NCBI GenBank assembly: GCA_000247545.1
Contig: CP003316.1
Location: 2,327,233-2,391,232 of the forward strand
Direction of reading: 5' to 3'
Length of the DNA: 64,000 nt
Source: Pyrobaculum oguniense TE7
GTDB lineage: Archaea; Thermoproteota; Thermoprotei; Thermoproteales; Thermoproteaceae
The notes under the pieces were generated by a model. The model had not been told where the DNA came from. It saw only the letters and a list, made by a program, of their open reading frames with translations, and searched no databases. Below are positions 5,203 to 22,778 of this stretch, in pieces. The stretch's first letter is position 1; each line of letters starts with the position of its first letter. Made by a program: the position numbers and the translations under genes.

Positions 5203-6458
5203 GCGAGCTCCTCCAGCTCTCTCCCGGCGCTTTCCACGCCTCTCATCTGCCACCACAAGGCACTGGTTAGGCCCATTGACCACAGCGCAACGAGCAGGGC
5301 GAGGAAGAGGTGCACGCCTATGACCCCCTCCAGGAAGACGGCCCCTGCGTTGGCCAGCCACGCCCCGGCTGTGACTAGGCCAACTGCGGTCGACCTCACG
5401 GCGGTGGGGAACAACTCGCTTTCCAGCACGCTGATTGAGGCCCAAGCCCACTCCGAGAAGACCAAGTTGAGGAACAACACAGACGCGTATATCCACGCCG
5501 GCGAGCCGTGGACTGCCGCCAAGGCGATGGCTGTGGCAAGCCCGCCTGCGAAGGCCGCGGTGAAGGACAGCTTCCTGCTCTTGTCAATAAGAGGTAGCAA
5601 CAAGAAGGCGCCAACTGCCGCGCCGAGGTTGGCAACGGCGACGTTTATCGGGGCGAACTCGGCCCCGTATGCGAAGCCCGGAGCATAAGGCACGTAGTAC
5701 GCGGCGATGTTATAGGTAATGAGTTGGGCCGTGAAGGCTACGGCCAAGAGCGCTATGCGGCCCCAGTACCCCCTCAGCGAGCCTTTCTGAGGCTGAGGCG
5801 GAGGCAAAGAGACGCCGTACCTCTTGGCGAGGGCCTCGGCCTCCGCCAGTCTCCCACGTGCCGCAAGCCACCGAAGCGACTCGGGGACGTGGAGCCTCGC
5901 CACCAACACTAAGACGGCGAGGGCTATGGCTGTGTAGAAGGTGTAGAGCACTGCGGTTTTGGGATCCCCCGTCAGCTCGGCGTAGTAGAGCGACGCCGCG
6001 GCCAGAATAGCGGCGCCGACGTTCCAGAAGTTGGCCGCGAGCATTAACGCCGTCCCGCGGCGGCGCGGCGGCGTAAGCTCGGCAAGCGCCGAGTAGGCCG
6101 GCCCCACCTCGCCGCCAACGCCGAAGTTTATCACCGAGGTGGTGGCTAACGCAACGGGGAGGGTCAACGCCCCGGCCCAAAACGTGGCAGCGAAAGCTAC
6201 GGCGCCGGCTGTGTATATTAAGAGGGATGTTATCAGACCTAGCCTCCGTCCCAAGACGTCCCCCACCCACCCCAGCACCAAGGCCCCCAGCATGAAGAAG
6301 AGAGAGTTTACGGCAAAGATCAATGGGGCCTCCGAGACTAGCCCCTCGATTAAGTATATAGTGGCGGGCACCAACGTGAACAGAACTCCGTCGAGGAAAA
6401 AGCTGGCGCTCACAATGGCAAAGAGGCCCCAGTGGATCCTTTTCCAACTCTCAGGCAT
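5199..6458 (-). CDS. MFS transporter (sugar/organic acid porter type)
   Basis: The 419-residue protein has twelve predicted membrane helices in two halves. The major-facilitator loop signature GWVGDVLGRRLGLI lies between helices 2 and 3 (about residues 63-76), and the RRGTALM segment near residue 130 matches the sugar-porter branch. A hydrophilic central loop lies near 195-225. Substrate is unknown. The stop codon overlaps that of the convergent signal peptidase (5199-5202, TTAG). It is monocistronic, with about 620 gene-free bases before purC upstream. Confidence 0.82.
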   Translation of the reverse strand: MPESWKRIHWGLFAIVSASFFLDGVLFTLVPATIYLIEGLVSEAPLIFAVNSLFFMLGALVLGWVGDVLGRRLGLITSLLIYTAGAVAFAATFWAGALTLPVALATTSVINFGVGGEVGPAYSALAELTPPRRRGTALMLAANFWNVGAAILAAASLYYAELTGDPKTAVLYTFYTAIALAVLVLVARLHVPESLRWLAARGRLAEAEALAKRYGVSLPPPQPQKGSLRGYWGRIALLAVAFTAQLITYNIAAYYVPYAPGFAYGAEFAPINVAVANLGAAVGAFLLLPLIDKSRKLSFTAAFAGGLATAIALAAVHGSPAWIYASVLFLNLVFSEWAWASISVLESELFPTAVRSTAVGLVTAGAWLANAGAVFLEGVIGVHLFLALLVALWSMGLTSALWWQMRGVESAGRELEELA

Positions 6459-7040
6459 AATAAACTAATCCAAATTACTATTAATAATTTATCTGCGTAG
6501 ATAATGGCGTGGCCATCTTCGAGACTTAGTCACCTCAACAGGAGCGAGCAACAGACGTGGGCTATGTTGCGGATATTGCCATCGCGGCCGCTACAGAATC
6601 TTTGGTGCTGTGTTAGTTAATAGAACATTCAGAATATTGATCAGACGCGAAGAAATAACGCGCTGACAAACAGAGTAACCAAAGGATGGATAATACTATG
6701 GCAAGAATAGAGGCAGAGGTGTATAGCAGCCATATATACAAGACAGGAGTATAGACGCCGTGTTCGACATCATTTACAAAACAGAAGGCTCTTGAACGGC
6801 TGTGATATGCCTAAATCCCCGATATTTACGCCGCGGCATTAGTTACATGAAGTGGCGCAAAAGCCGCCTTATCACCCATGCCGAGAATTTGCAAGGCGGC
6901 TTGGTAGCACACCCGCGGCTCTGAGGCGCTTCTTTGCCAGATCGCACAGCTTGGCTGGCTAGATGCCAGCTGTATGGCTTTTCTTTTTATTTAGATGGTT
7001 AAACAGAGATATCGAATAGGCCTCTTAGAGATGGATTGCA
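6459..7040. other. Gene-free stretch
   Basis: About 580 bases between the divergent MFS gene and purC. Only short frames broken by stops are seen on either strand, no tRNA arms, and no repeat that I recognise. One short run on the + strand reads VGYVADIAIAAATESLVL and then stops, which could be the relic of a lost gene, but I cannot identify it. Confidence 0.5.
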
Positions 7041-7058
7041 TTTAAGTTAACATTTAAA
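7041..7058. promoter_or_regulatory. Candidate purine operator (Pur box), purC
   Basis: TTTAAGTTAACATTTAAA, 38 to 21 bases before the purC GTG. Its second half is also the likely TATA box (TTTAAA at -26), so a bound protein would block promoter recognition. It is one of seven copies of TTTAA-N8-TTAAA found before purine genes in this window. Confidence 0.65.
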
Positions 7059-7078
7059 ATGGGGGCTCATCTTCATAC

Positions 7079-7783
7079 GTGGAGCTGGTGTATGAGGGGA
7101 AGGCGAAGAGGGTATATAAATCAGGCGGTCTCTACGTAATGGAGTTTAAAGACGAGGTGACCGCGGGGGACGGAGCTGTGAGAGCTACGGCACCGGGAAA
7201 GGGTGCACTTGCCGCTGAGACGAGCTATCTGCTGTTCCGCTACGTCTCTCCAGCCGTGCAGACGCACCTAGTCGACTTCAAACCCCCAAACGCCCTGGTG
7301 GTGAAACCGGCTGAGGTCCTCCCCGTCGAGGTAATAGTCAGGTTCAAGGCATACGGCAGCATCTTGAAGAGGATGCCCAGGCTTAGGTCTCTCCAGCCCC
7401 TTTTTAGACCCATTGTGGAGTTCCACTACAAAGACGACGCCCTCCACGACCCGTTGATCTACCCGCAGGAGGTTGCAGAGGCAGGAATCGCCTCCGATGC
7501 CGAGGTGGCTGAGATAGAGCGCGCCGCCCTCGCCGCAGCCAAGGCGCTTAGGGATCTCTACGCAAGGGCAGGTTGCGACTTCGTAGACGTGAAGTTCGAA
7601 TTCGGCAAGGTCGGAGGCCGGCTTGTCCTTGTCGACGAGATCTCCGGCGACACCTTTAGGCTTCTGTGTAACGGCGAGCATTTAGACAAGGAGTACTTCC
7701 GCAAGACAAGAGACGCAACAGGGCTAGTGGAGCGCTATAAAAAGTTGCTAGAACTTACGAAAAGCCTATTGCAAAATTCATAG
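7079..7783 (+). CDS. purC: SAICAR synthase PurC
   Basis: The 234-residue enzyme joins aspartate to CAIR using ATP, giving SAICAR in purine synthesis. It starts MELVYEGKAKRVY, the standard PurC opening with the nucleotide-binding lysines. It also shows EVTAGDG, the VIVRFKAYGS segment, and the late VLVDEISGDTFRL motif (near residue 185) whose acidic residues bind metal. Length is normal. Start GTG 7079 is placed by the TTTAAA element at -26. It is transcribed alone ahead of the purN-folD-purM unit, with a Pur box directly on its promoter. Confidence 0.95.
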   Translation: MELVYEGKAKRVYKSGGLYVMEFKDEVTAGDGAVRATAPGKGALAAETSYLLFRYVSPAVQTHLVDFKPPNALVVKPAEVLPVEVIVRFKAYGSILKRMPRLRSLQPLFRPIVEFHYKDDALHDPLIYPQEVAEAGIASDAEVAEIERAALAAAKALRDLYARAGCDFVDVKFEFGKVGGRLVLVDEISGDTFRLLCNGEHLDKEYFRKTRDATGLVERYKKLLELTKSLLQNS

Positions 7784-7995
7784 CTTTCGCGTGTCCCATA
7801 ATACAACACCAACAATACGGAGCGACTCAACACGCGGCCAACGAGCCAAGCAAGCTATTTAATAAGGGGCGTAAACGCCTTTGACATAGGCGGAGGCTGT
7901 GCCATCAACGCGGTAGGGGCGCCCGGTGAGGGACGTAATCTCTCCGCAAAGCTGATGACGTCCCGTCTCTAGCTGTGGCAACAGGCGTTTATGTC

Positions 7996-8013
7996 TTTAG
8001 GTATTCACTTAAA
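7996..8013. promoter_or_regulatory. Candidate Pur box, purN operon
   Basis: TTTAGGTATTCACTTAAA, one mismatch from TTTAA-N8-TTAAA. On the other strand it reads TTTAAGTGAATACCTAAA, close to the purS copy. It lies 82 to 65 bases before the purN start and upstream of the TATA region. Confidence 0.55.
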
Positions 8014-8044
8014 TATCATAGGGTAAACTCTGTAGGCATATCCT

Positions 8045-8064
8045 CTGAAAAATTTATTTTTCAG
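8045..8064. promoter_or_regulatory. Perfect palindrome over the purN TATA box
   Basis: CTGAAAAAT-TT-ATTTTTCAG: two exactly complementary 9-base arms with a 2-base centre, spanning -33 to -14 relative to the purN GTG and covering the AATTTATTTT element. It may be a second operator or may only reflect an A/T-rich promoter with symmetric flanks. Confidence 0.45.
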
Positions 8065-8077
8065 CTTAAATGGAAAC

Positions 8078-8902
8078 GTGAAGTTGGGAGTCTTAGCCTC
8101 GTGGCGGGGGACTAACTTCAAGGCGATTCTTGACCACATACGGCTAGGCGTGTTGAAGGGCGTAGAGCCGGCTGTGTTGATCTACAGCGACGAGAAGGCG
8201 CCGGTGCGCGAGATCGCGGAGAAATACGGTGTAGAGGCTGTTTTCGTAAAACATCGCGGGGTGCCTAGGGGGGAGCGGGAGAGAGAAATGATAGAGGTGC
8301 TTGAAGGCCGGGGCGTAGACGTGGTGGCGTTGGCGGGCTACGACTACGTCTTAAGCAAGGAGTTCATAGAGAGCTTCAACTTAGTCCTCAACATCCACCC
8401 CTCCCTCCTCCCCTTCGCCGGGGGGAAGGGGATGTACGGGATGAGAGTCCACATGGAGATCTATCGCGCCGGGGTAAAGGTTACGGGGCCCACTGTACAC
8501 GTAGTGGACGAGTCGGTAGACGGCGGCCCCATTGTGGATCAATGGCCTGTCTACATAGCCGACGTTTACACTCTGCCGCTCAGCACTGAGGAGAAGGTGC
8601 AAATAATCGCAGATCGGGTTCTCATATTTGAGCACCGGCTCTACTCCAGAGTCCTCCAAGCCGTCGCCGACGGCTTGCTTGAGCTGAGAGAAGAGCGGGT
8701 GAAGGCACCAAGGGTGGTGGAGGAGGGCGGAAAGATTAAGGTGGAGGAGGTGGAAATCGTCGTGAAAAGGGCCTTACTCACGGTAGACGAGGCGTGGAGG
8801 AGGGCCTGGGAGGAAAGGCAGAGGATATACGTCGAGTATCAGCTCAAGGAGTGGGCCACCAAGCCACTCCACTTAATCCTGCCGCCATGGTTACGTGGAT
8901 AA
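8078..8902 (+). CDS. purN: GAR formyltransferase PurN, long form
   Basis: This enzyme transfers a formyl group from a folate-type carrier to glycinamide ribotide. The catalytic Asn-His-Asp set is visible: NIHPSLLPF (about residue 106) and the Asp in TVHVVDESVDGGPI (about 146). The usual PurN is about 200 residues; this protein has 274, with about 75 extra charged C-terminal residues, including a run of Val/Lys/Glu and an aromatic-rich end. The opening lacks the usual SGxG loop form, having VLASWRGTNF instead. It heads a tight purN-folD-purM operon (16-base and 4-base overlaps), coupling the enzyme to its cofactor supply. Confidence 0.9.
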   Translation: MKLGVLASWRGTNFKAILDHIRLGVLKGVEPAVLIYSDEKAPVREIAEKYGVEAVFVKHRGVPRGEREREMIEVLEGRGVDVVALAGYDYVLSKEFIESFNLVLNIHPSLLPFAGGKGMYGMRVHMEIYRAGVKVTGPTVHVVDESVDGGPIVDQWPVYIADVYTLPLSTEEKVQIIADRVLIFEHRLYSRVLQAVADGLLELREERVKAPRVVEEGGKIKVEEVEIVVKRALLTVDEAWRRAWEERQRIYVEYQLKEWATKPLHLILPPWLRG

Positions 8903-9822
8903 GAGGCGAGGGGCTTCACAGACAGGCCAAGGAGTGGGCCCGCGAACACGTTAAAAGACTTGAGGAGGTTGGGATAACTCCTAAGCTGGCCATTATCCTC
9001 CTCAACGACGACCCCGTAGAGCTGGCGACGCAGAGGCGCTTCGCCTCGCTCAAGGCGAGGGACGTTAGGGAGGTGGGGGGCGAGGCGGAGATCTACGAGC
9101 TCCACGACGTGCCTCCAGAGAGGAGGACGAAGGAGGCGCTTAGGCTCATAGAGAGCTTGAACAAAAGAGACGATGTAACTGGCGTGATAATCCAGAAGCC
9201 AGTACCGCCCTTTGTAGACGAGAGGGCCCTCTTCGCGGCGCTTTCGCCGGAGAAGGACGTTGACGCGTTGACGCCTGACAACAAGAAGAGGCTCCTAGAC
9301 CGCTTCGACTTGGACAACGACGTCCTTCCCTGCACGCCTGCGGGGATTCTGGAGCTGTTCCGCATGTATGGCATAGAGATTAGGGGGAAAGACGTCGTTG
9401 TCGTCGGCAAGGGGGAGCTTGTGGGTAAGCCCCTCTCGGTGATGCTTATGCAACTAGACGCCACGGTGACTGTACTCCACGCGTTGTCTAAAGAGAGGGA
9501 GCCATACGTCAAGAGGGCCGATATTGTGATCTCCGCTGTCGGGAGGCCGCCTGAGATATACAGGGACAACCCGTGGCGCCTCACCGGCGAGATGATAAAG
9601 GAGGGCGTTGTAGTGGTTGGCGTCGGGGGGAAGGTAGACCCCATCTCTGGCAAGTGGCACTTTGATGTGGACGAGAAGTCCGTGGCGGAGAAGGCATCGT
9701 ACCTAACGCCCAATATAGGCGGCGTCGGTCTGGCCACGAGGGCCAGAGTGTTGAAAAACCTCATAAGGACGTCGTATCAAGTAGCCAGATTAGTCGTGAG
9801 CTCTAGAATAGTGGGGCCATGA
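8887..9822 (+). CDS. folD: Methylene-THF dehydrogenase/cyclohydrolase FolD
   Basis: The 311-residue enzyme interconverts 5,10-methylene- and 10-formyl-tetrahydrofolate, supplying PurN. Visible FolD features are VIIQKPVPP, the PEKDVDALTP block, PCTPAGILELF, and the dinucleotide loop VVVGKGELVGKPLSVML near residue 175, followed by NIGGVG. The catalytic lysine is in RRFASLKARD; aligned to E. coli FolD the tyrosine four residues before it is phenylalanine. Start ATG 8887 lies inside the end of purN (16-base overlap). It overlaps purM by ATGA. The placement argues that this archaeon uses a folate-like carrier for purines. Confidence 0.92.
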   Translation: MVTWIRGEGLHRQAKEWAREHVKRLEEVGITPKLAIILLNDDPVELATQRRFASLKARDVREVGGEAEIYELHDVPPERRTKEALRLIESLNKRDDVTGVIIQKPVPPFVDERALFAALSPEKDVDALTPDNKKRLLDRFDLDNDVLPCTPAGILELFRMYGIEIRGKDVVVVGKGELVGKPLSVMLMQLDATVTVLHALSKEREPYVKRADIVISAVGRPPEIYRDNPWRLTGEMIKEGVVVVGVGGKVDPISGKWHFDVDEKSVAEKASYLTPNIGGVGLATRARVLKNLIRTSYQVARLVVSSRIVGP

Positions 9823-13481: not shown

Positions 13482-13929
13482 TGGAAATAAGGCTTGAGGT
13501 GCCGGAAGGAGTCGTCAGAAAAATTGGAGAGCTTGCAAAAAAGAGGGTGGTACCCTAACTACGTCGAGGCGGATCCAGATGATAAGGTGGAACTTCACCT
13601 AAAGCTTTGCGAGAAGTACCTCCGCGAAGCCGAACAACTGACACAAAAAGGCGGATACGTTCAAGCCTCTGAGAAGGCGTGGGGGGCCGCCGCCCAGATA
13701 GTGGACGCAGTGGCGTCTAAGAGAGGCGAAGAGCTGAAGAGCCACGGCGATTTGTGGCGCTTCGTCACCAAGCTGAGGGAGAGACTGGAGATGCCGAGTT
13801 GGCCAGGCTGTGGCACGCGGCTGACAGCCTACACACCAACTTCTACGAGGCGTGGGCCACGCCGGAGCTTGTCAAAGACGCAGTTAAAGACGTCAAGCCT
13901 TCGTCGAGAAGTTGAAACGGCTCATATGA
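13482..13929 (+). pseudogene. PaREP1 family gene, frameshifted
   Basis: Joining three frames restores a PaREP1-like protein (a Pyrobaculum repeat family of unknown function). GTG 13482 begins VEIRLEVPEGVVRKIGELAK and hits a stop after the VVP codons near 13557. The next frame carries the body, including VELHLKLCEKYLREAEQL and VQASEKAWGAAAQ. At about 13795 the reading moves to DAELARLWHAADSLHTNFYE, and at about 13897 to AFVEKLKRLI and a TGA at 13927-13929. Three independent breaks make a dead copy the simplest reading; base errors could explain one. Nothing suggests it is mobile by itself. Confidence 0.72.
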
Positions 13930-14315
13930 CGTCGCCAGCGTCGATTTGATTTAATCTCGCCCGGATCTCTGTACATCACGAAGAGGCGACGCCGCCAGGA
14001 AGAACAGCAGAAAAGAGGCAATTAGCTTCAATTGTCATACTTAGACGTATTTTAGCCTCCGCTCGGGTCGGGTGGCCGCCGGCCTTCCGGACGCGGCCCT
14101 GTCTGCACGCGCCGTAGCGCCGGTAGGGTCCCCGCGTCCCGGGACCTCTGGATAGCAGAAGAGGACGCCGGCTTCCAACAACGGCGTTTATACGCCCAGC
14201 GAGAGGCGGCAGAATCGCCGGCGCCGTGGGGACGCCGCTGGGCCGAACGCCGATGCCAGAAAGTGTATTTAAGCCCGGCCCCGGGATCCCAGACGCCAGG
14301 CCGGCGGCCGGTTAT
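13930..14315. other. Gene-free, very GC-rich stretch
   Basis: Between the PaREP1 relic and the tenA-like pair, convergent ends on both sides. The stretch has many short GC-rich inverted repeats (for example around 14200-14225 and 14275-14315). I tested it by eye for RNase P RNA, SRP RNA and tRNA signatures and found none convincing. It could hold a structured transcript or transcription ends of both flanking genes. Confidence 0.4.
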
Positions 14316-14906
14316 CTAGCCCGACACCGAGCGCCAAAACTCCAGCTCGTAGCGCTGTATCGCCTTGGCCACAAACCTGTAGCGCCCCCAGTCGAGGTAC
14401 CTCTGGGCGATGGCCTCGGCGGCGGCTTCCAGCTGGTCGTAGGGGCCGGCGAACATCTCCAGAAAGCCCAGCCTTTTATAGCCCTGCTCCTTGGCCCACC
14501 TGGCCAGCGCCAAGCAGTTCTCCCCCCAGACGGGGAGGTTCACCGTCATAGCCACCGCCAAGTCGCCCATTGTGCCGTTCACCGCAAGCCACGAGAGGAA
14601 GTGGGTGTAGGCAACGGCCGACGGGTCCAGCGCGTCCCATGAAAAGGAGACCCCCACCTCCTCGGCGAGCTCCCACAAAAGCTGTAGGGCGTTGTAGTCG
14701 CCGTCGACAAGCGTCTTGACGAAGCGGTACTCGTCCGGCTCCCTCGCCTTGGCCATAGCCGCGGAGAGGGCCTTCAAGTCGTGCGGGACGATGTAGAGCT
14801 GGTTCGCCACGAACTTCACAAGCGCCTCTCTGCTCGGCCTCAGCGCGGCGCGTATCTCGGCGTTTAAAGGCTCCAGCTCCCTCCTAATCGCCTCAATGAC
14901 CCTCAT
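14316..14906 (-). CDS. TenA/PqqC-fold protein without catalytic Cys
   Basis: A 196-residue all-helical protein of the TenA/THI-4 superfamily. The C-terminal ELEFW motif, carrying the catalytic glutamate of TenA, is retained (YELEFWRSVSG). The LPCYW-type segment that bears the catalytic cysteine instead reads LPVWGENC, so the nucleophile position is valine. It is probably a divergent paralog of its neighbour, overlapped by 14 bases and cotranscribed. It may act as a partner subunit or on another aminopyrimidine-like substrate; function is not proven. Confidence 0.75.
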   Translation of the reverse strand: MRVIEAIRRELEPLNAEIRAALRPSREALVKFVANQLYIVPHDLKALSAAMAKAREPDEYRFVKTLVDGDYNALQLLWELAEEVGVSFSWDALDPSAVAYTHFLSWLAVNGTMGDLAVAMTVNLPVWGENCLALARWAKEQGYKRLGFLEMFAGPYDQLEAAAEAIAQRYLDWGRYRFVAKAIQRYELEFWRSVSG

Positions 14907-15531
14907 AAGCAGCCTGCCAGAACTCCAGCTCGTACATCGACGCCTCCTTGAAGTAGGGCCACAGCTCCTCTGCCGAAAGGCCAGACGCGTCTAGCACCCC
15001 CCTCAGCTCTGAGACCAATGCCCGGTACTCCGGGCTCAAGTAGACAGAGGCCCACTTCCTGTAAACCGCCACGGGGTTGGCGGCGAGCTTCTCCCGGTGC
15101 ACCTCGGCTATTTCCATATAGGACCAGAAGCAGGGGAGGAAGGCCGCCATGCAGTGGTAGAAGCCCTCAAGCGCACAGACCGACTTGAGATACGCCATGT
15201 ACGACACGTTTACCCGGTTAGGCTCAGCGGCCTCGGCGTCCTTGAGCGTCAGCCCCACCTCCCTCAGCAACGCCTCGTAGTTCGCCATCTCCCCCGTCAC
15301 CGTGCCGTAAGCCAGCTCCAGCGCCGTCTTCATGAGATCCACCCCGGGGGCCCGCGCCGCCGCCAGGGACAAGGCCTTGGCAAAGTTCACCAAGTAGTTG
15401 TAGTCCTGGAGGAGGTAGTACTTAAACTTCTCTATGGGGAGGCTCCCGGCGTAGAGCTCAACCACGAAGGGGTGGGCGAAAATCCTCTGCCAAATCTGAT
15501 CGGCGCGACTCCTCAACTCCTCCGTAGCCAT
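14893..15531 (-). CDS. tenA: TenA thiaminase II / aminopyrimidine aminohydrolase
   Basis: The 212-residue enzyme hydrolyses 4-amino-5-aminomethyl-2-methylpyrimidine (or thiamine) to the HMP moiety for thiamine salvage. The active-site set of TenA can be read in order: YLLQDYNYLVNF (Asp), NVSYMAYLKSV (Tyr), AFLPCFWSYMEIA (catalytic Cys, near residue 138) and YELEFW (Glu). Length is typical. A TATA-like TTTTTATAG at 15551-15558 lies about 25 bases before the ATG. It is the first gene of a two-gene unit with the Cys-less paralog. Thiamine genes reappear at 52-60 kb. Confidence 0.9.
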   Translation of the reverse strand: MATEELRSRADQIWQRIFAHPFVVELYAGSLPIEKFKYYLLQDYNYLVNFAKALSLAAARAPGVDLMKTALELAYGTVTGEMANYEALLREVGLTLKDAEAAEPNRVNVSYMAYLKSVCALEGFYHCMAAFLPCFWSYMEIAEVHREKLAANPVAVYRKWASVYLSPEYRALVSELRGVLDASGLSAEELWPYFKEASMYELEFWQAAYEGH

Positions 15532-16292: not shown

Positions 16293-18497
16293 ATGAGGTC
16301 GGGCTTGATGGCGTTGGCTGTGTTGCTGGCGGTGTTGGCGGTGGCCGCTCCCCCCGACGCGGCTATGGAAAACAGGCCTATTATCCCCCACGCCTACGTG
16401 TGCCTAAACGCGTCTGAGGTGGGCAACGTCTACAACGCGGCTTTCAGCGTCTACGTTGACGGGGAAGGCTTCCGCCCAGCCGCCGTCTACGTGGAGGGGG
16501 AGGTGGTGCCCGCCGTCTACCCCAACATCACTGACGTATTCTACACAGTGGTGGCGCCTAGAAAGCCGGCGAAGATATGCCTAGACATGCCCACCTCAAG
16601 AAAGGCTCTAGACGCCGTAGCGAGGGAGGCTGAAGAGAAGGCAAGGGCGAGGGGCGTGCTCTTAGCCATCCCCACGCCCAGAGGCGTGGGCTACCTCCTA
16701 GCTGAGAACAGAACCGGCGACGTACCGCCGATAGTCAAGTGGCCCAGCGACACCCCGGCAGAGAGACCGAAGGCCAAGAAGGATATCACGCCGAGACAGA
16801 AGCCCGAAGTAGCAACATCTGCCGCAACCGGAGAGGTGGTTGGCTATGTAAAAAGCGTCTTGTTCAACTTCACTAGGCATGGCAGTGGCTGTGTCTACCC
16901 CAGCAGTGGTAGGGAGGTAGTACTGCCAAACGGCACTCTCTGGGTAGAGCTCGTCCTCACCAACGCCACGTCAAGGGGCACATACAGCGTATACATAAAC
17001 CTATACGACGAAGCCGGCAACCTAATCTACTTTGACACGGGGGCTTCGGTAACTGTGGACAAAAAAGCCCCCGCCTACTTGGCTAGGCACGTCGACGTCC
17101 CGGCAAGCGGCCAAAACAAGGTGATCAGGGTAAGTGTCCGGATTTGCGGAGGCCCTACCGACAAGATCCTAGACGGCTACCTCCTGTTCAGGGTTAGGGC
17201 AAGCGACTACTACGCCTCCTACGTGAGATACCCCATACAGCCGGGGGCCATAATCGTCGTTAAAAACGCCTTGACTCAGCCCAGTTTAAACGACGTGTTT
17301 TCAAACGGCACATACGTCATTTTTGCAACTATGGAGATCCCGCCTGGCCACTGGGCCGGGACCGGGTCACTTGCGGCAGATCTTACAATAAAGCTCTGCA
17401 CTGCCAGCTCCTCGTCACCGCCACCCAGCTACTTCGGCCCACTAAACCTCTACTACGGCCCCCACTGGATAGGCTCTGCTTCCGCCGCGGCGCAGAGTTG
17501 CGGCTGGCAGAACATAGGCGGGTACAGCCTATACTGCTGCACTTACAGGATAAACAGCTGGAGCTGGATAAACGCCCCCGACAGCGTGGCAGTCCAGTAC
17601 GGCCTTAGAAACCCGGCGGGGTACCCCCTCATCATAGGTCCCATACCCACCTCCAGTGGAATCATATACGCCGATGTGGCCATCAACACGCTCAGCTACC
17701 GCGGACTTAGAAGGCCAGACATAGCGCCGCCCGACTCGCAGGTGTTCGCTTATTACGCCCACAATTTTGTTGATATAGTGCTAGAATATTGGAACGTGAG
17801 GGGGACTTCAGGTGTCGCTACCAGAATCGATATTAGAACCCAGTACGCAGGAGATACCAGATCTATTCCCTATATCCCGATTGTAATATCGCCGCATGTC
17901 CTCGGTAACGTAAAATACAGTGTTCCCGACAGGTTAGACGTGATTATTTACTCCCCGTATCAGATTTTTGACTCTCAGCCGCGTGGCGCGACTAAGACTC
18001 TGATTCCCAGCACCACTCTTAGAGACGCTATCGATGTTGTTTCTCCTGTACTCGACTTTCTAGGAATTCTCGGAAGGGCGTTGCAATATGTGAATGAGCC
18101 ACGTGTTAAAACTACCGGCCAAGCCCTAACCATAATCAGCACAGTGGGTCGATATATTGTTGAGTCAGCGGTTAGCACGTACTACACATCACTCGCTGGT
18201 AGCTATAGTTTCACTGTAATTGCAAACATCGGGTTGGCGGAGAAGCAGACACAACACGCGCTGAGGGTATACTCTATAATAAACACGGCGGTTAGCACAG
18301 AGATACAAATTGCCTCTATCATTGTTTGGGAGGGGAGCTCGGCGAGGACTTACAGGTTAGACGTGACGTCGCCGATGCCTACGAGAATCACAGCCGCAAC
18401 TCAGCCGGTTTACGCCTTCCGTAACTTCTTCTGTCTTTTCAACGAGCCAGTAGAGGGAAAATTCAAGTGGACGTGCAACTACGGGGGGTTTAGATAA
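16293..18497 (+). CDS. Large secreted beta-rich protein, copy A
   Basis: A 734-residue protein with a signal peptide (about residues 1-24, ending near PPDAA) and then a mainly beta, Ser/Thr/Tyr-rich extracellular chain with many N-x-S/T sites. A proline/lysine-rich linker lies near 150-175. A shared block follows near 215, VVLPNGTLWVELVLTNATSR, then YSVYINLYDEAGNLIYFD. The end has the pattern FFCLF-x-C-x-FR. The same blocks and ending recur in the paralog at 20204-22270. The last third is visibly richer in A/T than the rest. It is followed after 9 bases by a small membrane protein. No known family or enzymatic motif is recognised; a surface or adhesion role is inference. Confidence 0.78.
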   Translation: MRSGLMALAVLLAVLAVAAPPDAAMENRPIIPHAYVCLNASEVGNVYNAAFSVYVDGEGFRPAAVYVEGEVVPAVYPNITDVFYTVVAPRKPAKICLDMPTSRKALDAVAREAEEKARARGVLLAIPTPRGVGYLLAENRTGDVPPIVKWPSDTPAERPKAKKDITPRQKPEVATSAATGEVVGYVKSVLFNFTRHGSGCVYPSSGREVVLPNGTLWVELVLTNATSRGTYSVYINLYDEAGNLIYFDTGASVTVDKKAPAYLARHVDVPASGQNKVIRVSVRICGGPTDKILDGYLLFRVRASDYYASYVRYPIQPGAIIVVKNALTQPSLNDVFSNGTYVIFATMEIPPGHWAGTGSLAADLTIKLCTASSSSPPPSYFGPLNLYYGPHWIGSASAAAQSCGWQNIGGYSLYCCTYRINSWSWINAPDSVAVQYGLRNPAGYPLIIGPIPTSSGIIYADVAINTLSYRGLRRPDIAPPDSQVFAYYAHNFVDIVLEYWNVRGTSGVATRIDIRTQYAGDTRSIPYIPIVISPHVLGNVKYSVPDRLDVIIYSPYQIFDSQPRGATKTLIPSTTLRDAIDVVSPVLDFLGILGRALQYVNEPRVKTTGQALTIISTVGRYIVESAVSTYYTSLAGSYSFTVIANIGLAEKQTQHALRVYSIINTAVSTEIQIASIIVWEGSSARTYRLDVTSPMPTRITAATQPVYAFRNFFCLFNEPVEGKFKWTCNYGGFR

Positions 18498-18506
18498 GGC
18501 GGTTAT

Positions 18507-19037
18507 ATGAACTGCAAGTTTTTTCCCCTTTTTTCCACCGCTGTTCTCCTACTCCTTTTCTTCCCCTTGTATTTTCTAGACTGGTCTTTCCTTACCGCCT
18601 CCCCGCTCGGCTTCTCTCTTGCGTATTTTTCGGCTTTTAGGCCTCGGCTCTTGGCCTTGTGGCCGCTTGCCTTCGCAGTCCCGGCGCTTTACAAGGCGGG
18701 GGTGGTGGACGCCACCGCCGTGTTGTGGTACTTGGCCTTCGCCACAGCGGCGGCGTATGGCCTGGCGGCGTTGGTTGGGAGTGGGGTGTGTCGTCTTGTT
18801 TCTCTTGCCGTGTTTTGGGTTGTGGAGCAACTCGCGGCAATCGCCGTGAGCCTCCCCTTGTCGCTTCTGGGGTATACCTTCGGCGCGCCTCTACCCCACT
18901 TCTGGGAATACCCCCTATACATAGCCGTCTACTGGCTAATCTACCAGACACACGGCAGGGCCGTAAACTGGTGCCAAGGGCGATTAGAAAAGCCAGAGCT
19001 CACATGCTGGTGGGAACGCCGCGGGGAAGGCGTCTGA
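18507..19037 (+). CDS. Small polytopic membrane protein, copy A
   Basis: A 176-residue protein with about five membrane segments, starting MNCKFFPLFSTAVLLLLFF, and a short basic, tryptophan-containing tail. It follows the secreted-protein gene by 9 bases and probably shares its transcript. A protein of the same size and layout follows the paralogous secreted gene (22257-22778), so the pair behaves as a cassette. Sequence identity between the two membrane proteins is low by eye; the link rests on layout. Role unknown: membrane anchor, exporter or processing partner are possibilities. Confidence 0.7.
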   Translation: MNCKFFPLFSTAVLLLLFFPLYFLDWSFLTASPLGFSLAYFSAFRPRLLALWPLAFAVPALYKAGVVDATAVLWYLAFATAAAYGLAALVGSGVCRLVSLAVFWVVEQLAAIAVSLPLSLLGYTFGAPLPHFWEYPLYIAVYWLIYQTHGRAVNWCQGRLEKPELTCWWERRGEGV

Positions 19038-19212
19038 ACAAGCCGACGATCACCGCGCCACATGCCACTTTCTAAACCCAACATGCTCATTGCGCCTATA
19101 CGGCATTTTCTATATGCGGCGTAGGCGCCTGTAATGAGCTGGGAGGACTTGTGGTGTTTTTAGTGTTTTGTTAAAGAGATGGCCAATCCGCCGTGCGCCC
19201 CATCTAGCATTG

Positions 19213-19230
19213 TTTAAGTGTTTAGTTAAA
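19213..19230. promoter_or_regulatory. Candidate Pur box, purSQ
   Basis: TTTAAGTGTTTAGTTAAA, the best-formed copy, 47 to 30 bases before the purS start. It sits directly upstream of the TATA element TTTTATAT (19233-19240), in the region where the BRE and TFB bind, so binding should block initiation. Confidence 0.65.
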
Positions 19231-19259
19231 GGTTTTATATGGGTGTGTTTTGAACTGCC

Positions 19260-19514
19260 GTGAGGTACGCGGTGTACCTAAACGTCGCCTACAAACCCTC
19301 GATAAGGGACCCCGAGGGGGAGACTATCGCAAACGACTTGCTGGCGCGGCTGGGGTACAGCGTAGAGGTCCGCGCGGGGAAGTGCCTCGTGCTGTACATA
19401 GAGGCGCCCAGCCCCGAGGCGGCCCGGGCGGAGGCCTTGAAAATTGCGAAGGAGGCGAGGCTGGGCAACCCCAACGTCCACGTGGTGGAGGTCCTCAAGG
19501 TGGCCGAGGCATGA
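19260..19514 (+). CDS. purS: FGAM synthase subunit PurS
   Basis: The 84-residue small subunit of the three-part PurSQL complex that makes FGAM. It starts RYAVYLNVAYKPSIRDPEGETI, the typical PurS opening beta strand and DP-G segment, and ends with VHVVEVLKVAE. Start GTG 19260 fits the TATA element at 19233-19240. The longer frame beginning upstream is not needed. The stop overlaps the purQ start as ATGA. PurL, the large subunit, is separate at 24227-26320 with its own Pur box. Confidence 0.93.
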   Translation: MRYAVYLNVAYKPSIRDPEGETIANDLLARLGYSVEVRAGKCLVLYIEAPSPEAARAEALKIAKEARLGNPNVHVVEVLKVAEA

Positions 19515-20146
19515 TCGCTGTTTTGAAATTCCCCGGCACCAATGGGGACTACGACGTGTTGAGGGCGCTGGAGCTTGCGGGGCTGAGGGGGGAGATCGTG
19601 TGGTACAAGGACTACCGGCCGGGGGCGTACGACGCTGTGGTGCTGGCTGGGGGCTTCTCCTACGGCGACAGGCTGAGGGCCGGCGCCGTCGCAGCCGCCA
19701 CCAAGGCGGTAGAGCACGTGAGGGAGGACGCGGAGAGGGGCGTCCCCGTGCTGGGGATCTGCAACGGCTTCCAGATCTTGGTCGAGGCGGGGCTTTTGCC
19801 CGGCGCCCTCATCCCCAACGACCCGCCGGGCTTTATAAGCAGGTGGATCCCCATACGCGTCGTGGACAACGAAACCCCCTTCACCCTCCTCTACCAGAGG
19901 GGGGAGGTGGTCTACACGCCGGTGGCCCACGCAGAGGGGCGCTACATACCCGAGGGAAGCCCGAGGGCTGTCTTCAAATACGTGGAGAACCCCAACGGCT
20001 CCGTCGACGACATTGCCGGGGTAGCGCGGGGCAACGTCCTCGGCCTAATGCCCCACCCAGAAAGGGCGGTGGACCCCCACATCTCAAGAAACGGCGTAGG
20101 GGGGCTGAAGCTGTGGCTTAGCCTAAAGGAGTGGCTGAGAAGGTAG
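19511..20146 (+). CDS. purQ: FGAM synthase glutaminase PurQ
   Basis: The 211-residue class I glutamine amidotransferase supplies ammonia to PurL. The nucleophile elbow VLGICNGFQILVEAG (about residue 83) holds the catalytic cysteine; the histidine-glutamate pair is in GLMPHPERAV near residue 185. It opens MIAVLKFPGTNGDYD, the standard PurQ start. ATG 19511 overlaps the purS stop, so the two subunits are coupled. Length is typical for the small archaeal and Bacillus-type enzyme. Confidence 0.95.
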   Translation: MIAVLKFPGTNGDYDVLRALELAGLRGEIVWYKDYRPGAYDAVVLAGGFSYGDRLRAGAVAAATKAVEHVREDAERGVPVLGICNGFQILVEAGLLPGALIPNDPPGFISRWIPIRVVDNETPFTLLYQRGEVVYTPVAHAEGRYIPEGSPRAVFKYVENPNGSVDDIAGVARGNVLGLMPHPERAVDPHISRNGVGGLKLWLSLKEWLRR

Positions 20147-20203
20147 CCCGCCGCAGAGGCCGGCGCTGGCGGAGAAAAACTTAAAAAAAGAATTCCTTAT
20201 ACT

Positions 20204-22270
20204 ATGCGTGCGTTGCAGATAGTGTTTCCATTAGCCGCCTGGCTTGTGGTCCTGGCGGCTCTCGTATACGCGACTCCTGCGGTAGGCGTGGTGGAGTTCA
20301 GAGAGGTTTGCGTTAAGGCACATGCGCTGGGCCTTGTGGGGAGAGGCGTTTACGAAGTGGCGTTCTTGGCGCGGGTAGGCGATGGTTTTATCTATCTTCC
20401 CTACCGCGTGGGGGCTGAGGAGGTTTCTTTGTCGCCGTTGTTGATAAACATGACAGACGCTGGTAGGTACGTCTTTAATTCGCACGTCTTGCCGCCGCGT
20501 TTTAAAAACGACACTGTTATCTGCATATCGATACCTCTAAACACGGCGAGACCTCCGCCTAGGGCCCCCAGAGGGGGCGACCTCTACCAAATCGGCGAGG
20601 CCTACGTGGTGGTGTCCCCGAGGCAGCCCTACGACCCACCCCCCTCCCCCGTCATCGGCCCCAAGCCCAGTTCTGTGCCTATTAAAAAGGTAGGCGTGGT
20701 GGAGGCCGCGGGGCCCGACGCAGAGCCCCTCGCCGCCGCCTCTACGGCTGTGAGGACCATCTCCGGCGGCTTTAAAACAAGGGCGGCGTCTAACACCACA
20801 GTGGCGGCGTACGGAATGACGTTTACCACTACGCCTATTGACCTGCCCAACGGCACGAGGTATATATGGCTCGCCTTTACCAACGTCACACAGCCCGGGA
20901 GCTACTCCCTATACTACAAGATCTACGACGCCGAAAACAACGCCGTCTACTTCGAAGGCACTGTGACCACGTCGGTGGACGGGAGGAGCCCCTACTACTC
21001 CGTCATCCCAATACCAGTGTACCAAAAGGCGTATAACCGCCTCTTGAAGCTGTACCTAGCCGTTAAGAACAACAACCCCACCCCGAGGGCCGTGGACTTG
21101 GTAATCGTCGGCGTCTTCGACACGTCGCGCCACATGGACAACCGCTGGGCAGCCGGCATGGCCACTAGGTACCAATACGGCTTCCCCAGCTATGTCGTGC
21201 CCTACGACAAGGCCTACGCGGCCATACCAATCCACATACCGCCTGGAGGCGTCCACGGGACTGAGAGGGTTAGGGCTAAGCTGGGGCTGAGTATATGTTC
21301 GCCTAACGCGCCGAGCGCGGTGACAGCCGACGTGTATATAAGGCCCATATGGGTGGGCTCCATTACCTTCACCTACAGTTATAGGGACGCCGCTGGGTGC
21401 GCCGTCTACACCACGGCGGAGGGTACCTTCACGGGCTTCCTCCCAACGCCATATCTCCTACTAGGCACCACCGACCTCGCCGTAGGGCCCCTCCCCGCGG
21501 GCTCCCGCATAACCGTCTACGAGCTATACGTAGAGGGCTACAGACGCCCCGAATTCAACAGACCGTGGTCGCCGTACCTGTACAGCTCTACATGGCTGGA
21601 CGGCACCTTCGTAGTTAACAGCGTATTAAGAGTAGAGGCTTATCCTCTGACAACAGGTGCAAGCATTACCGGTATGGTAATAAGGATATCTCTTTCGCCC
21701 ATAGTGACTCCGAGTGGGGTTATTCCTCTATCGTCTGGCGAACATGTGATCACATATTCCATATATGCGCCGATCGTAAGGCTATCACCACCTCAGTATG
21801 CTGTTGAAGGCAGACAGACTACTCTAAGCGACCATCTACTTCCGATTGTCAAAAGACTGAATGCGATACTGTCCGCACTTGGCGTGATTATAGATCGGAC
21901 AGCGCGAGATCCGCGTGGTAAAATGGCGTATAAGGTGGTTACCTTCGCAGGGAAGGTGGCGGAAGGCGCCTTATCATCAGCAAAAACCACGGTATCCGTC
22001 TCTTCATCCAGCGTTAATATAAATGTGGGATGGGAGGAGACAAAAAACGTAGTAACCGTGTGGATAGATATCTTTACGGAGGGGAGGCCAGAGGTGCAGA
22101 CGGATGTATATAGCTTTAAGTCGCCTTATGCCACAATTCCAAGTGAACTACCTGTCTCGTCAACAATTCGTGGCCTACAACCTTTATCCATTGATAATTA
22201 TCGTACATGGTACTGTCTATATCAGCATGATTTACTCGGAGAGGCGTGTAGGGAAGATGCTTTTAGGTAG
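20204..22270 (+). CDS. Large secreted beta-rich protein, copy B
   Basis: A 688-residue paralog of the protein at 16293-18497. It has a signal peptide (residues 1-24) and a proline-rich segment near 125-165. The shared block near 210 reads IDLPNGTRYIWLAFTNVTQP followed by YSLYYKIYDAENNAVYFEG. Beta-rich repeats and a C-terminal WYCLY-x-C-x-FR ending follow. As in copy A, the last 200 residues are encoded by A/T-richer DNA with different codon use. Start ATG 20204 follows a TTAAAAAAAG stretch. It overlaps the next, membrane-protein gene by 14 bases. No family is recognised; a cell-surface role is inference. Confidence 0.78.
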   Translation: MRALQIVFPLAAWLVVLAALVYATPAVGVVEFREVCVKAHALGLVGRGVYEVAFLARVGDGFIYLPYRVGAEEVSLSPLLINMTDAGRYVFNSHVLPPRFKNDTVICISIPLNTARPPPRAPRGGDLYQIGEAYVVVSPRQPYDPPPSPVIGPKPSSVPIKKVGVVEAAGPDAEPLAAASTAVRTISGGFKTRAASNTTVAAYGMTFTTTPIDLPNGTRYIWLAFTNVTQPGSYSLYYKIYDAENNAVYFEGTVTTSVDGRSPYYSVIPIPVYQKAYNRLLKLYLAVKNNNPTPRAVDLVIVGVFDTSRHMDNRWAAGMATRYQYGFPSYVVPYDKAYAAIPIHIPPGGVHGTERVRAKLGLSICSPNAPSAVTADVYIRPIWVGSITFTYSYRDAAGCAVYTTAEGTFTGFLPTPYLLLGTTDLAVGPLPAGSRITVYELYVEGYRRPEFNRPWSPYLYSSTWLDGTFVVNSVLRVEAYPLTTGASITGMVIRISLSPIVTPSGVIPLSSGEHVITYSIYAPIVRLSPPQYAVEGRQTTLSDHLLPIVKRLNAILSALGVIIDRTARDPRGKMAYKVVTFAGKVAEGALSSAKTTVSVSSSSVNINVGWEETKNVVTVWIDIFTEGRPEVQTDVYSFKSPYATIPSELPVSSTIRGLQPLSIDNYRTWYCLYQHDLLGEACREDAFR

Positions 22271-22778
22271 GGCTGGATTGTCGACTGTTTTTTTGTATTT
22301 GTTGAATTTGCCGCTATACTTGTTTAACCCTCTTTTTTATCCTCCGCTCTTTTCTCTAGGCGTGGCTTCGTATCACGCGGCTTTTTTCGGCTTCTACACT
22401 CTGTGGGGGTGGGTGTTGCTTGTGGGGTCTTACGCGCTGGGGGCCTTGTTCCACCCGGCGGCTGGGGTGGCCTTGGCGTTTGTGGGGGGCTTCTTCGTGG
22501 CGCTGGCGTTGGGGAGGGGCGGCTGGAGGCTTCTCTCTCTTCTGCTCTACGTGGCCCTCTACGTTGTGTTGACGAACTTGTTGGCGCTGGCCTCTGTGCC
22601 CATGCCATATCTAGTGGAGAGGGAGGACGTCCCCGACCCGGCGCATGCCCCTCTCTACTTCGTTTACTACCTCGCCCTGCACTGGGCCTTTAACCGCCTG
22701 GTTAAGCCGGGGTCTGTTCTAGAGTCCGCGGCGCGGCTCTACAACACTTTTCTCAAGAAGGCCTTGAAAGACCTGTGA
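22257..22778 (+). CDS. Small polytopic membrane protein, copy B
   Basis: A 173-residue protein with about five membrane segments, starting MLLGRAGLSTVFLYLLNLPL. ATG 22257 lies inside the end of the secreted-protein gene (14-base overlap), so it is translated with it; the frame stays open further upstream but only inside the other gene. It ends with an amphipathic basic helix (LYNTFLKKALKDL). It matches the 176-residue protein after copy A in size, helix count and position. Function unknown. Confidence 0.7.
   Translation: MLLGRAGLSTVFLYLLNLPLYLFNPLFYPPLFSLGVASYHAAFFGFYTLWGWVLLVGSYALGALFHPAAGVALAFVGGFFVALALGRGGWRLLSLLLYVALYVVLTNLLALASVPMPYLVEREDVPDPAHAPLYFVYYLALHWAFNRLVKPGSVLESAARLYNTFLKKALKDL

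Follow-up and report, generated by a model that had tools for sequence, protein, structure and literature searches.

The described systems closest in organization and variability to the gene pair reported here are the VARTIG modules of Thermococcales (arCOG07710), whose authors did not find a close counterpart beyond this order (PMC8416519). The pair consists of a gene for a large, predicted exported protein and a gene for a small polytopic membrane protein, and two such units (A and B) lie in a 64,000-nucleotide stretch of the Pyrobaculum oguniense TE7 genome (contig CP003316.1, hereafter the window). As in VARTIG modules, a large exported multi-domain beta protein heads the operon (the beta domains being predicted here), the membrane genes correspond to the subfamily of their large protein (five concordant subfamilies), and a variable C-terminal region, apparently made by recombination, lies next to a conserved cysteine-containing end. 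Shared features also include recent gains and losses and restriction to one lineage. However, the VARTIG end motif D[ND]NxxxG[GD] is absent from all 20 large proteins, the Pyrobaculum unit has one membrane gene and no downstream stand-alone C-terminal homologues, and no significant Ig family match was obtained for the Pyrobaculum large proteins, the best being weak (E=0.23 and 0.78 only). Since the end motif and the stand-alone homologues are missing, the cassette was not filed as VARTIG.

Sortase, archaeosortase, rhombosortase and exosortase pairs resemble the unit in combining a C-terminal recognition tail with an adjacent polytopic membrane protein. Similarly, polymorphic toxin/immunity systems couple a secreted protein to a small partner that co-diversifies with it. 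Both the sortase-type and the toxin-type reading fail on tested features, as detailed below. The Ted DNA-import locus of Thermoproteales (PMC9905601) is related by position, as one unit lies inside a Ted-like locus, but neither cassette gene is a known Ted component and the other copies looked at sit elsewhere. The cassette is undescribed so far, and no known family has this pairing of a large and a membrane protein. Large and small proteins gave no match in Pfam, NCBIfam, PHROGs or PDB sequences, and global fold searches were also negative, in agreement with an earlier sequence-only reading of the window that knew of no such family.

Units A and B around purS-purQ

The features of the two units are, in window coordinates:

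16293..18497, + strand: large exported protein A, 734 aa (ORF; homology to B; family alignment)
18414..18494, + strand: conserved C-terminal tail of A, AFRNFFCLFNEPVEGKFKWTCNYGGFR (family alignment; conservation profile)
18507..19037, + strand: polytopic membrane partner A, 176 aa (ORF; family alignment; hydropathy)
19260..20146, + strand: purS-purQ, housekeeping genes between units A and B, outside the cassette (ORFs)
20178..20190, + strand: TATA-like A/T-rich box of unit B, ~25 nt 5' of the ATG (assigned by inspection)
20204..22270, + strand: large exported protein B, 688 aa (ORF; AlphaFold2)
22199..22267, + strand: conserved C-terminal tail of B, YRTWYCLYQHDLLGEACREDAFR (family alignment; conservation profile)
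22257..22778, + strand: polytopic membrane partner B, 174 aa (ORF; AlphaFold2, all-helical)

The two large ORFs and the two membrane genes of about 175 residues named in the sequence-only reading were confirmed, as was the close spacing within each pair. The small gene of unit A starts 9 nt after the stop of large A; that of unit B begins at an in-frame ATG at 22257, so that its first 14 nt are shared with the end of large B. By inspection, large A has a signal peptide at its N-terminus, and it carries the Cys tail at its C-terminus. Its body is expected to be all-beta, judged from the homologue B.

The large proteins were found to be homologous over their full length (BLASTP E=4e-22, 24% identity), and the alignment takes in both the LPNGT...TNxT...YS block and the Cys tail that had first suggested a relationship. 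No similarity between the small proteins A and B was detected by BLASTP (E=2.4); they form one family once relatives are aligned, and a family profile search finds both. The five helices originally counted in the small protein are all strongly hydrophobic, but hydropathy and AlphaFold2 place a sixth, weaker one beside them, and the count has to be amended.

Most of 20 family units have an A/T-rich TATA-like box ~25 nt 5' of the start codon. Therefore, each unit looks like its own transcription unit of two coupled genes. A bacterial promoter scan is not meaningful for P. oguniense, an archaeon. Orthologues of purQ are present in 13 of 19 related genomes. As the gene order around purS-purQ-purL is rearranged from species to species, the insertion boundaries of units A and B are not definable there.

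The window falls in a 2,300-2,385 kb stretch that P. oguniense has and P. arsenaticum lacks (PMC3558965). Upstream of the units, positions 13494-13949 hold a PaREP1/PaREP8-family gene (Pfam E=3e-16, part of the profile only); in P. oguniense, PaREP families have been connected with expansion of the genome. At 14316-15531 on the - strand, two TenA-family genes adjoin and overlap each other, and the one at 14316-14906 is far more divergent from the family profile than its neighbour.

Range and pairing of the family

Members of the family to which A and B belong (family I) were gathered by profile searches and then inspected. This gave 23 large genes: five Pyrobaculum genomes contribute 21, and a draft genome (G299) from another family of the same class contributes two. 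P. oguniense has six copies, G001 (which we take to be P. aerophilum) five, G003 and G009 (taken as two near Pyrobaculum species) six and three, and G002 (presumably P. calidifontis) one. In profile searches of 397 genomes of the phylum, the large and the small genes were confined to the same six genomes. No relatives were found among viral contigs, phages and plasmids, nor in a wider genome-contig collection from which near genomes may be left out.

The Cys tail ends 19 of the 21 Pyrobaculum large genes. In all 20 complete tailed copies (these 19 and one from G299), one small membrane gene alone follows directly downstream, its start lying between ~23 nt upstream and 9 nt downstream of the large stop. 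All intact small genes sit beside a large gene, with no intact orphan found. The constant pairing suspected from the two window units is thus borne out by the profile searches, in which partnerless homologues are uncommon; large A and large B are also clearly related. G299 was left out of profile building and served as an out-of-sample test of tail and partner. The complete one of its two copies has the C-terminus DRYRTLYCGYQED...C...R, and the membrane protein encoded directly downstream carries the conserved LPEP..APIY loop; in the other copy, the contig breaks off inside the tail. The neighbour genes of the units differ from site to site.

The 150-kb copy of G003 (L101:9115-9654) has its membrane gene in frame after the stop with no ATG, GTG or TTG near the apparent start, which could reflect a non-standard start, readthrough or a sequencing error. 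Decayed remnants of small and large genes were seen at L039:5975-6400 (P. oguniense, ~1725 kb) and in L033, L035 ~5880-6170.

Two copies depart from the usual arrangement. The P. oguniense copy at 713 kb is a large gene without the tail, and its membrane gene lies upstream in the same direction. In G002, the large and small genes are fused in frame into one ORF of 786 aa, of which, in BLAST alignments, residues 23-634 match the large protein and residues 617-767 the small one. At the junction, the tail is missing and the start (half) of the first membrane helix, TM1, is gone. As the TM1 remnant looks too short to span the membrane, hydropathy suggests that the large part could stay outside while the rest of the small protein keeps its usual orientation. 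With the two parts joined covalently, a docking tail would no longer be needed, and it is the tail that is absent from the fusion. Alternatively, the fusion could be decay by deletion. Tail and partner arrangement would be lost at once by a deletion spanning the gene junction, which makes the coincidence of tail loss with an odd arrangement, seen in two cases, weak.

Co-diversification, mosaic genes and changing locations

The trees of the large and the small protein contain the same five subfamilies. Their distance matrices are strongly correlated (Mantel r=0.956, permutation p=0.0001), and the nearest neighbours agree in 14 of 17 cases. The view that the cassette had been duplicated across purSQ had to be abandoned, as the trees place A and B in different, fully supported subfamilies and rule out local duplication. 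The closest unit to each belongs to another species: for A it is one of G003/G009 (57%), for B one of G001 (69%).

Identity averages 27.4% across the large protein; it falls to 17-21% in the final quarter of the body and rises to 38.7% over the last 28 columns. The tail is therefore an island of conservation beside the least conserved region. Its two cysteines (C671/C682), already singled out from the two window sequences, are kept in all 19 tailed Pyrobaculum rows. Furthermore, an N-terminal cysteine pair (C36/C107) is conserved in 20 of 20 large proteins, and S94, P126, P132 and Y134 are invariant in the small family. Where dS was estimable, dN/dS was 0.11-0.67 for the large genes and 0.16-0.26 for the small genes; neighbours had 0.08-0.15. 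Both are thus real genes under purifying selection that mostly evolve faster than their neighbours.

Sharp breaks in identity were observed within the large genes, with variable middle and C-terminal parts. Units of G003 and G009 at different sites share ~90% protein identity over the first 300 residues and ~45% thereafter, and the end of the small gene is identical again after the divergent part. A paralogue pair within G003 showed the same high-then-low pattern. Such breaks point to recombination. Additionally, P. oguniense and G001 share a ~7 kb block (L094:894-7740, L098:1-6850) with 95-100% DNA identity where profiled, which breaks inside a large gene and is flanked by orthologues of ~71-76%. 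This block appears to be a recent transfer.

One unit lies inside a 4,066-base stretch absent from G009. This presence/absence insertion, either a gain or a loss, is flanked by an imperfect ~11-base repeat; its ends showed no convincing inverted repeats, and it has no recognisable recombinase. Another position is the cargo slot of a Ted-like DNA-transfer island (L034:1-13001, L036:1-13001), which holds a large and small unit in G003 and a trypsin-like protein with a 231-aa membrane-type protein in G009. A general tie of the cassette to Ted loci was rejected, since the cargo of the slot varies and a single copy of the cassette sits in it. Among the fetched loci, the TedA/TedC-like genes of L034 match only L034, L036 and L044, and not the window. 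RadA-like loci related to the island occur several times per genome.

Predicted structure and possible roles

The AlphaFold2 model of large B (20 sequences; mean pLDDT 74, pTM 0.73) consists of multiple beta domains and a helical hairpin (541-591), and its tail (657-688) has pLDDT <50, which suggests that the tail is disordered. Foldseek gave no global match for the large protein (whole-chain TM at most 0.3), and neither Pfam nor the fold search recognised a ligand, adhesion or toxin domain; one domain of large B matches the carbohydrate-binding module 4d3l with a TM-score of 0.49 on the target. The model of small B is all helical (pLDDT 77), and its fold matched no solved structure. According to the positive-inside rule, the conserved Pro-rich loop of the small protein would lie outside.

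The best reading of these data is surface display by the small protein, which the sequence-only reading had also considered. We give about even credence to a reading of the unit as a self-contained cassette for surface display, with the tail docking on a dedicated membrane partner. The large protein would be exported through its signal peptide, fold into several beta domains outside the membrane and end in a flexible tail with the two conserved cysteines. The downstream gene, apparently translationally coupled, would supply the polytopic membrane protein, whose conserved outer loop (P-x-P-x-D-x-P-x-Y) may receive the tail, and the small protein may thereby hold or assemble the large one at the cell surface. 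Contact between the two proteins is suggested by the genetics, and the tail could instead merely close the last domain of the large protein. Recombination among copies and across species diversifies the fast-changing, presumably exposed middle and C-terminal domains, and the cassettes move about the genome. Within this picture, the sequences themselves show the pairing, the joint diversification, the conservation of the tail, the mosaic genes and the shifting locations, and docking, anchoring and a recognition role are inferred. Variable exposed domains on moving cassettes would fit a role in recognition, be it cell-cell contact, self/non-self discrimination or virus avoidance.

A toxin-immunity pair, in which the large protein, secreted or bound to the surface, would act against related cells and the small protein would confer immunity, is unlikely. 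The strict 1:1 coupling, the co-diversified subfamilies, the several copies per genome, the mosaic variation and the narrow taxonomic range would all suit it. Immunity families usually show orphan genes, but none that is intact was found for the small gene. Moreover, the extreme C-terminus is conserved rather than a variable toxin domain, neither Pfam nor fold comparison revealed a toxin domain, and the G002 fusion would link a toxin to its own immunity protein. The same idea was put forward for Thermococcales by the VARTIG authors (PMC8416519).

We consider it quite improbable that the small protein is a sorting or processing enzyme that cleaves the large protein at the tail or attaches it covalently, in the manner of single-target archaeosortases or rhombosortases. 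A conserved tail next to a polytopic membrane protein is indeed the arrangement of dedicated sortase pairs. However, the conserved catalytic Cys (with Arg/His) of such enzymes is missing: the 20 aligned small proteins have no invariant Cys and no recognisable catalytic set, and matched no Pfam or NCBIfam entry. Likewise, the tail has no hydrophobic segment, and the tripartite signal of motif, transmembrane helix and basic end is absent. Processing by the small protein, as proposed from the window sequence, is accordingly not supported, as neither protease or sortase residues nor a transmembrane sorting signal are conserved.

A binding protein that captures a nutrient or signal and a membrane protein that passes it on, as transporter or sensor, would agree with the 4d3l-like domain and the polytopic partner; we regard this as highly improbable, since the unit has no ATPase or other energising gene, the fold of the partner is unlike any solved transporter and the neighbours vary between sites. 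The least credible reading is a selfish or passenger pair of mobile islands with no set surface role, to which the unit in the variable cargo slot of a Ted-like island, the 4-kb insertion and the decayed remnants lend some colour, but purifying selection acts on both genes, most copies lie outside such islands and the unit has no recombinase.

If the docking of tail on partner is real, tail-docked display would be a route of surface anchoring without a sortase, lipid or transmembrane anchor, and would offer a direct handle on how Thermoproteales tell each other or viruses apart. With one variable exported protein, one membrane partner and one conserved tail, the cassette is a more simply built counterpart, in a separate lineage, to the variable modules of Thermococcales. 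Hypothetical genes present in several copies per genome thereby receive a first annotation.

Two more families of large exported beta proteins, of ~770 and ~710 aa (families II and III), were found in Pyrobaculum and show weak similarity to family I in a single domain (hhalign 95%). Wherever the downstream sequence of an intact or nearly intact copy was available, an overlapping membrane gene of 170-200 aa (4-5 helices) follows it. As the order of large and membrane gene is shared, this gene plan seems general in Pyrobaculum. It is conceivable, though rather doubtful, that the two-Cys tail folding on a polytopic receptor is a new, non-enzymatic form of archaeal surface anchoring within a two-gene plan by which at least three large Pyrobaculum families display rapidly recombining recognition proteins, as a self/non-self or mate-choice coat. 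Families II and III have their own conserved C-terminal ends without the Cys tail, and their membrane partners showed no detectable homology to those of family I. Their copies lie at L098:689-3518, L098:9761-12398 and L095 ~6738-9068, and in L141, L154, L143, L140 and L147.
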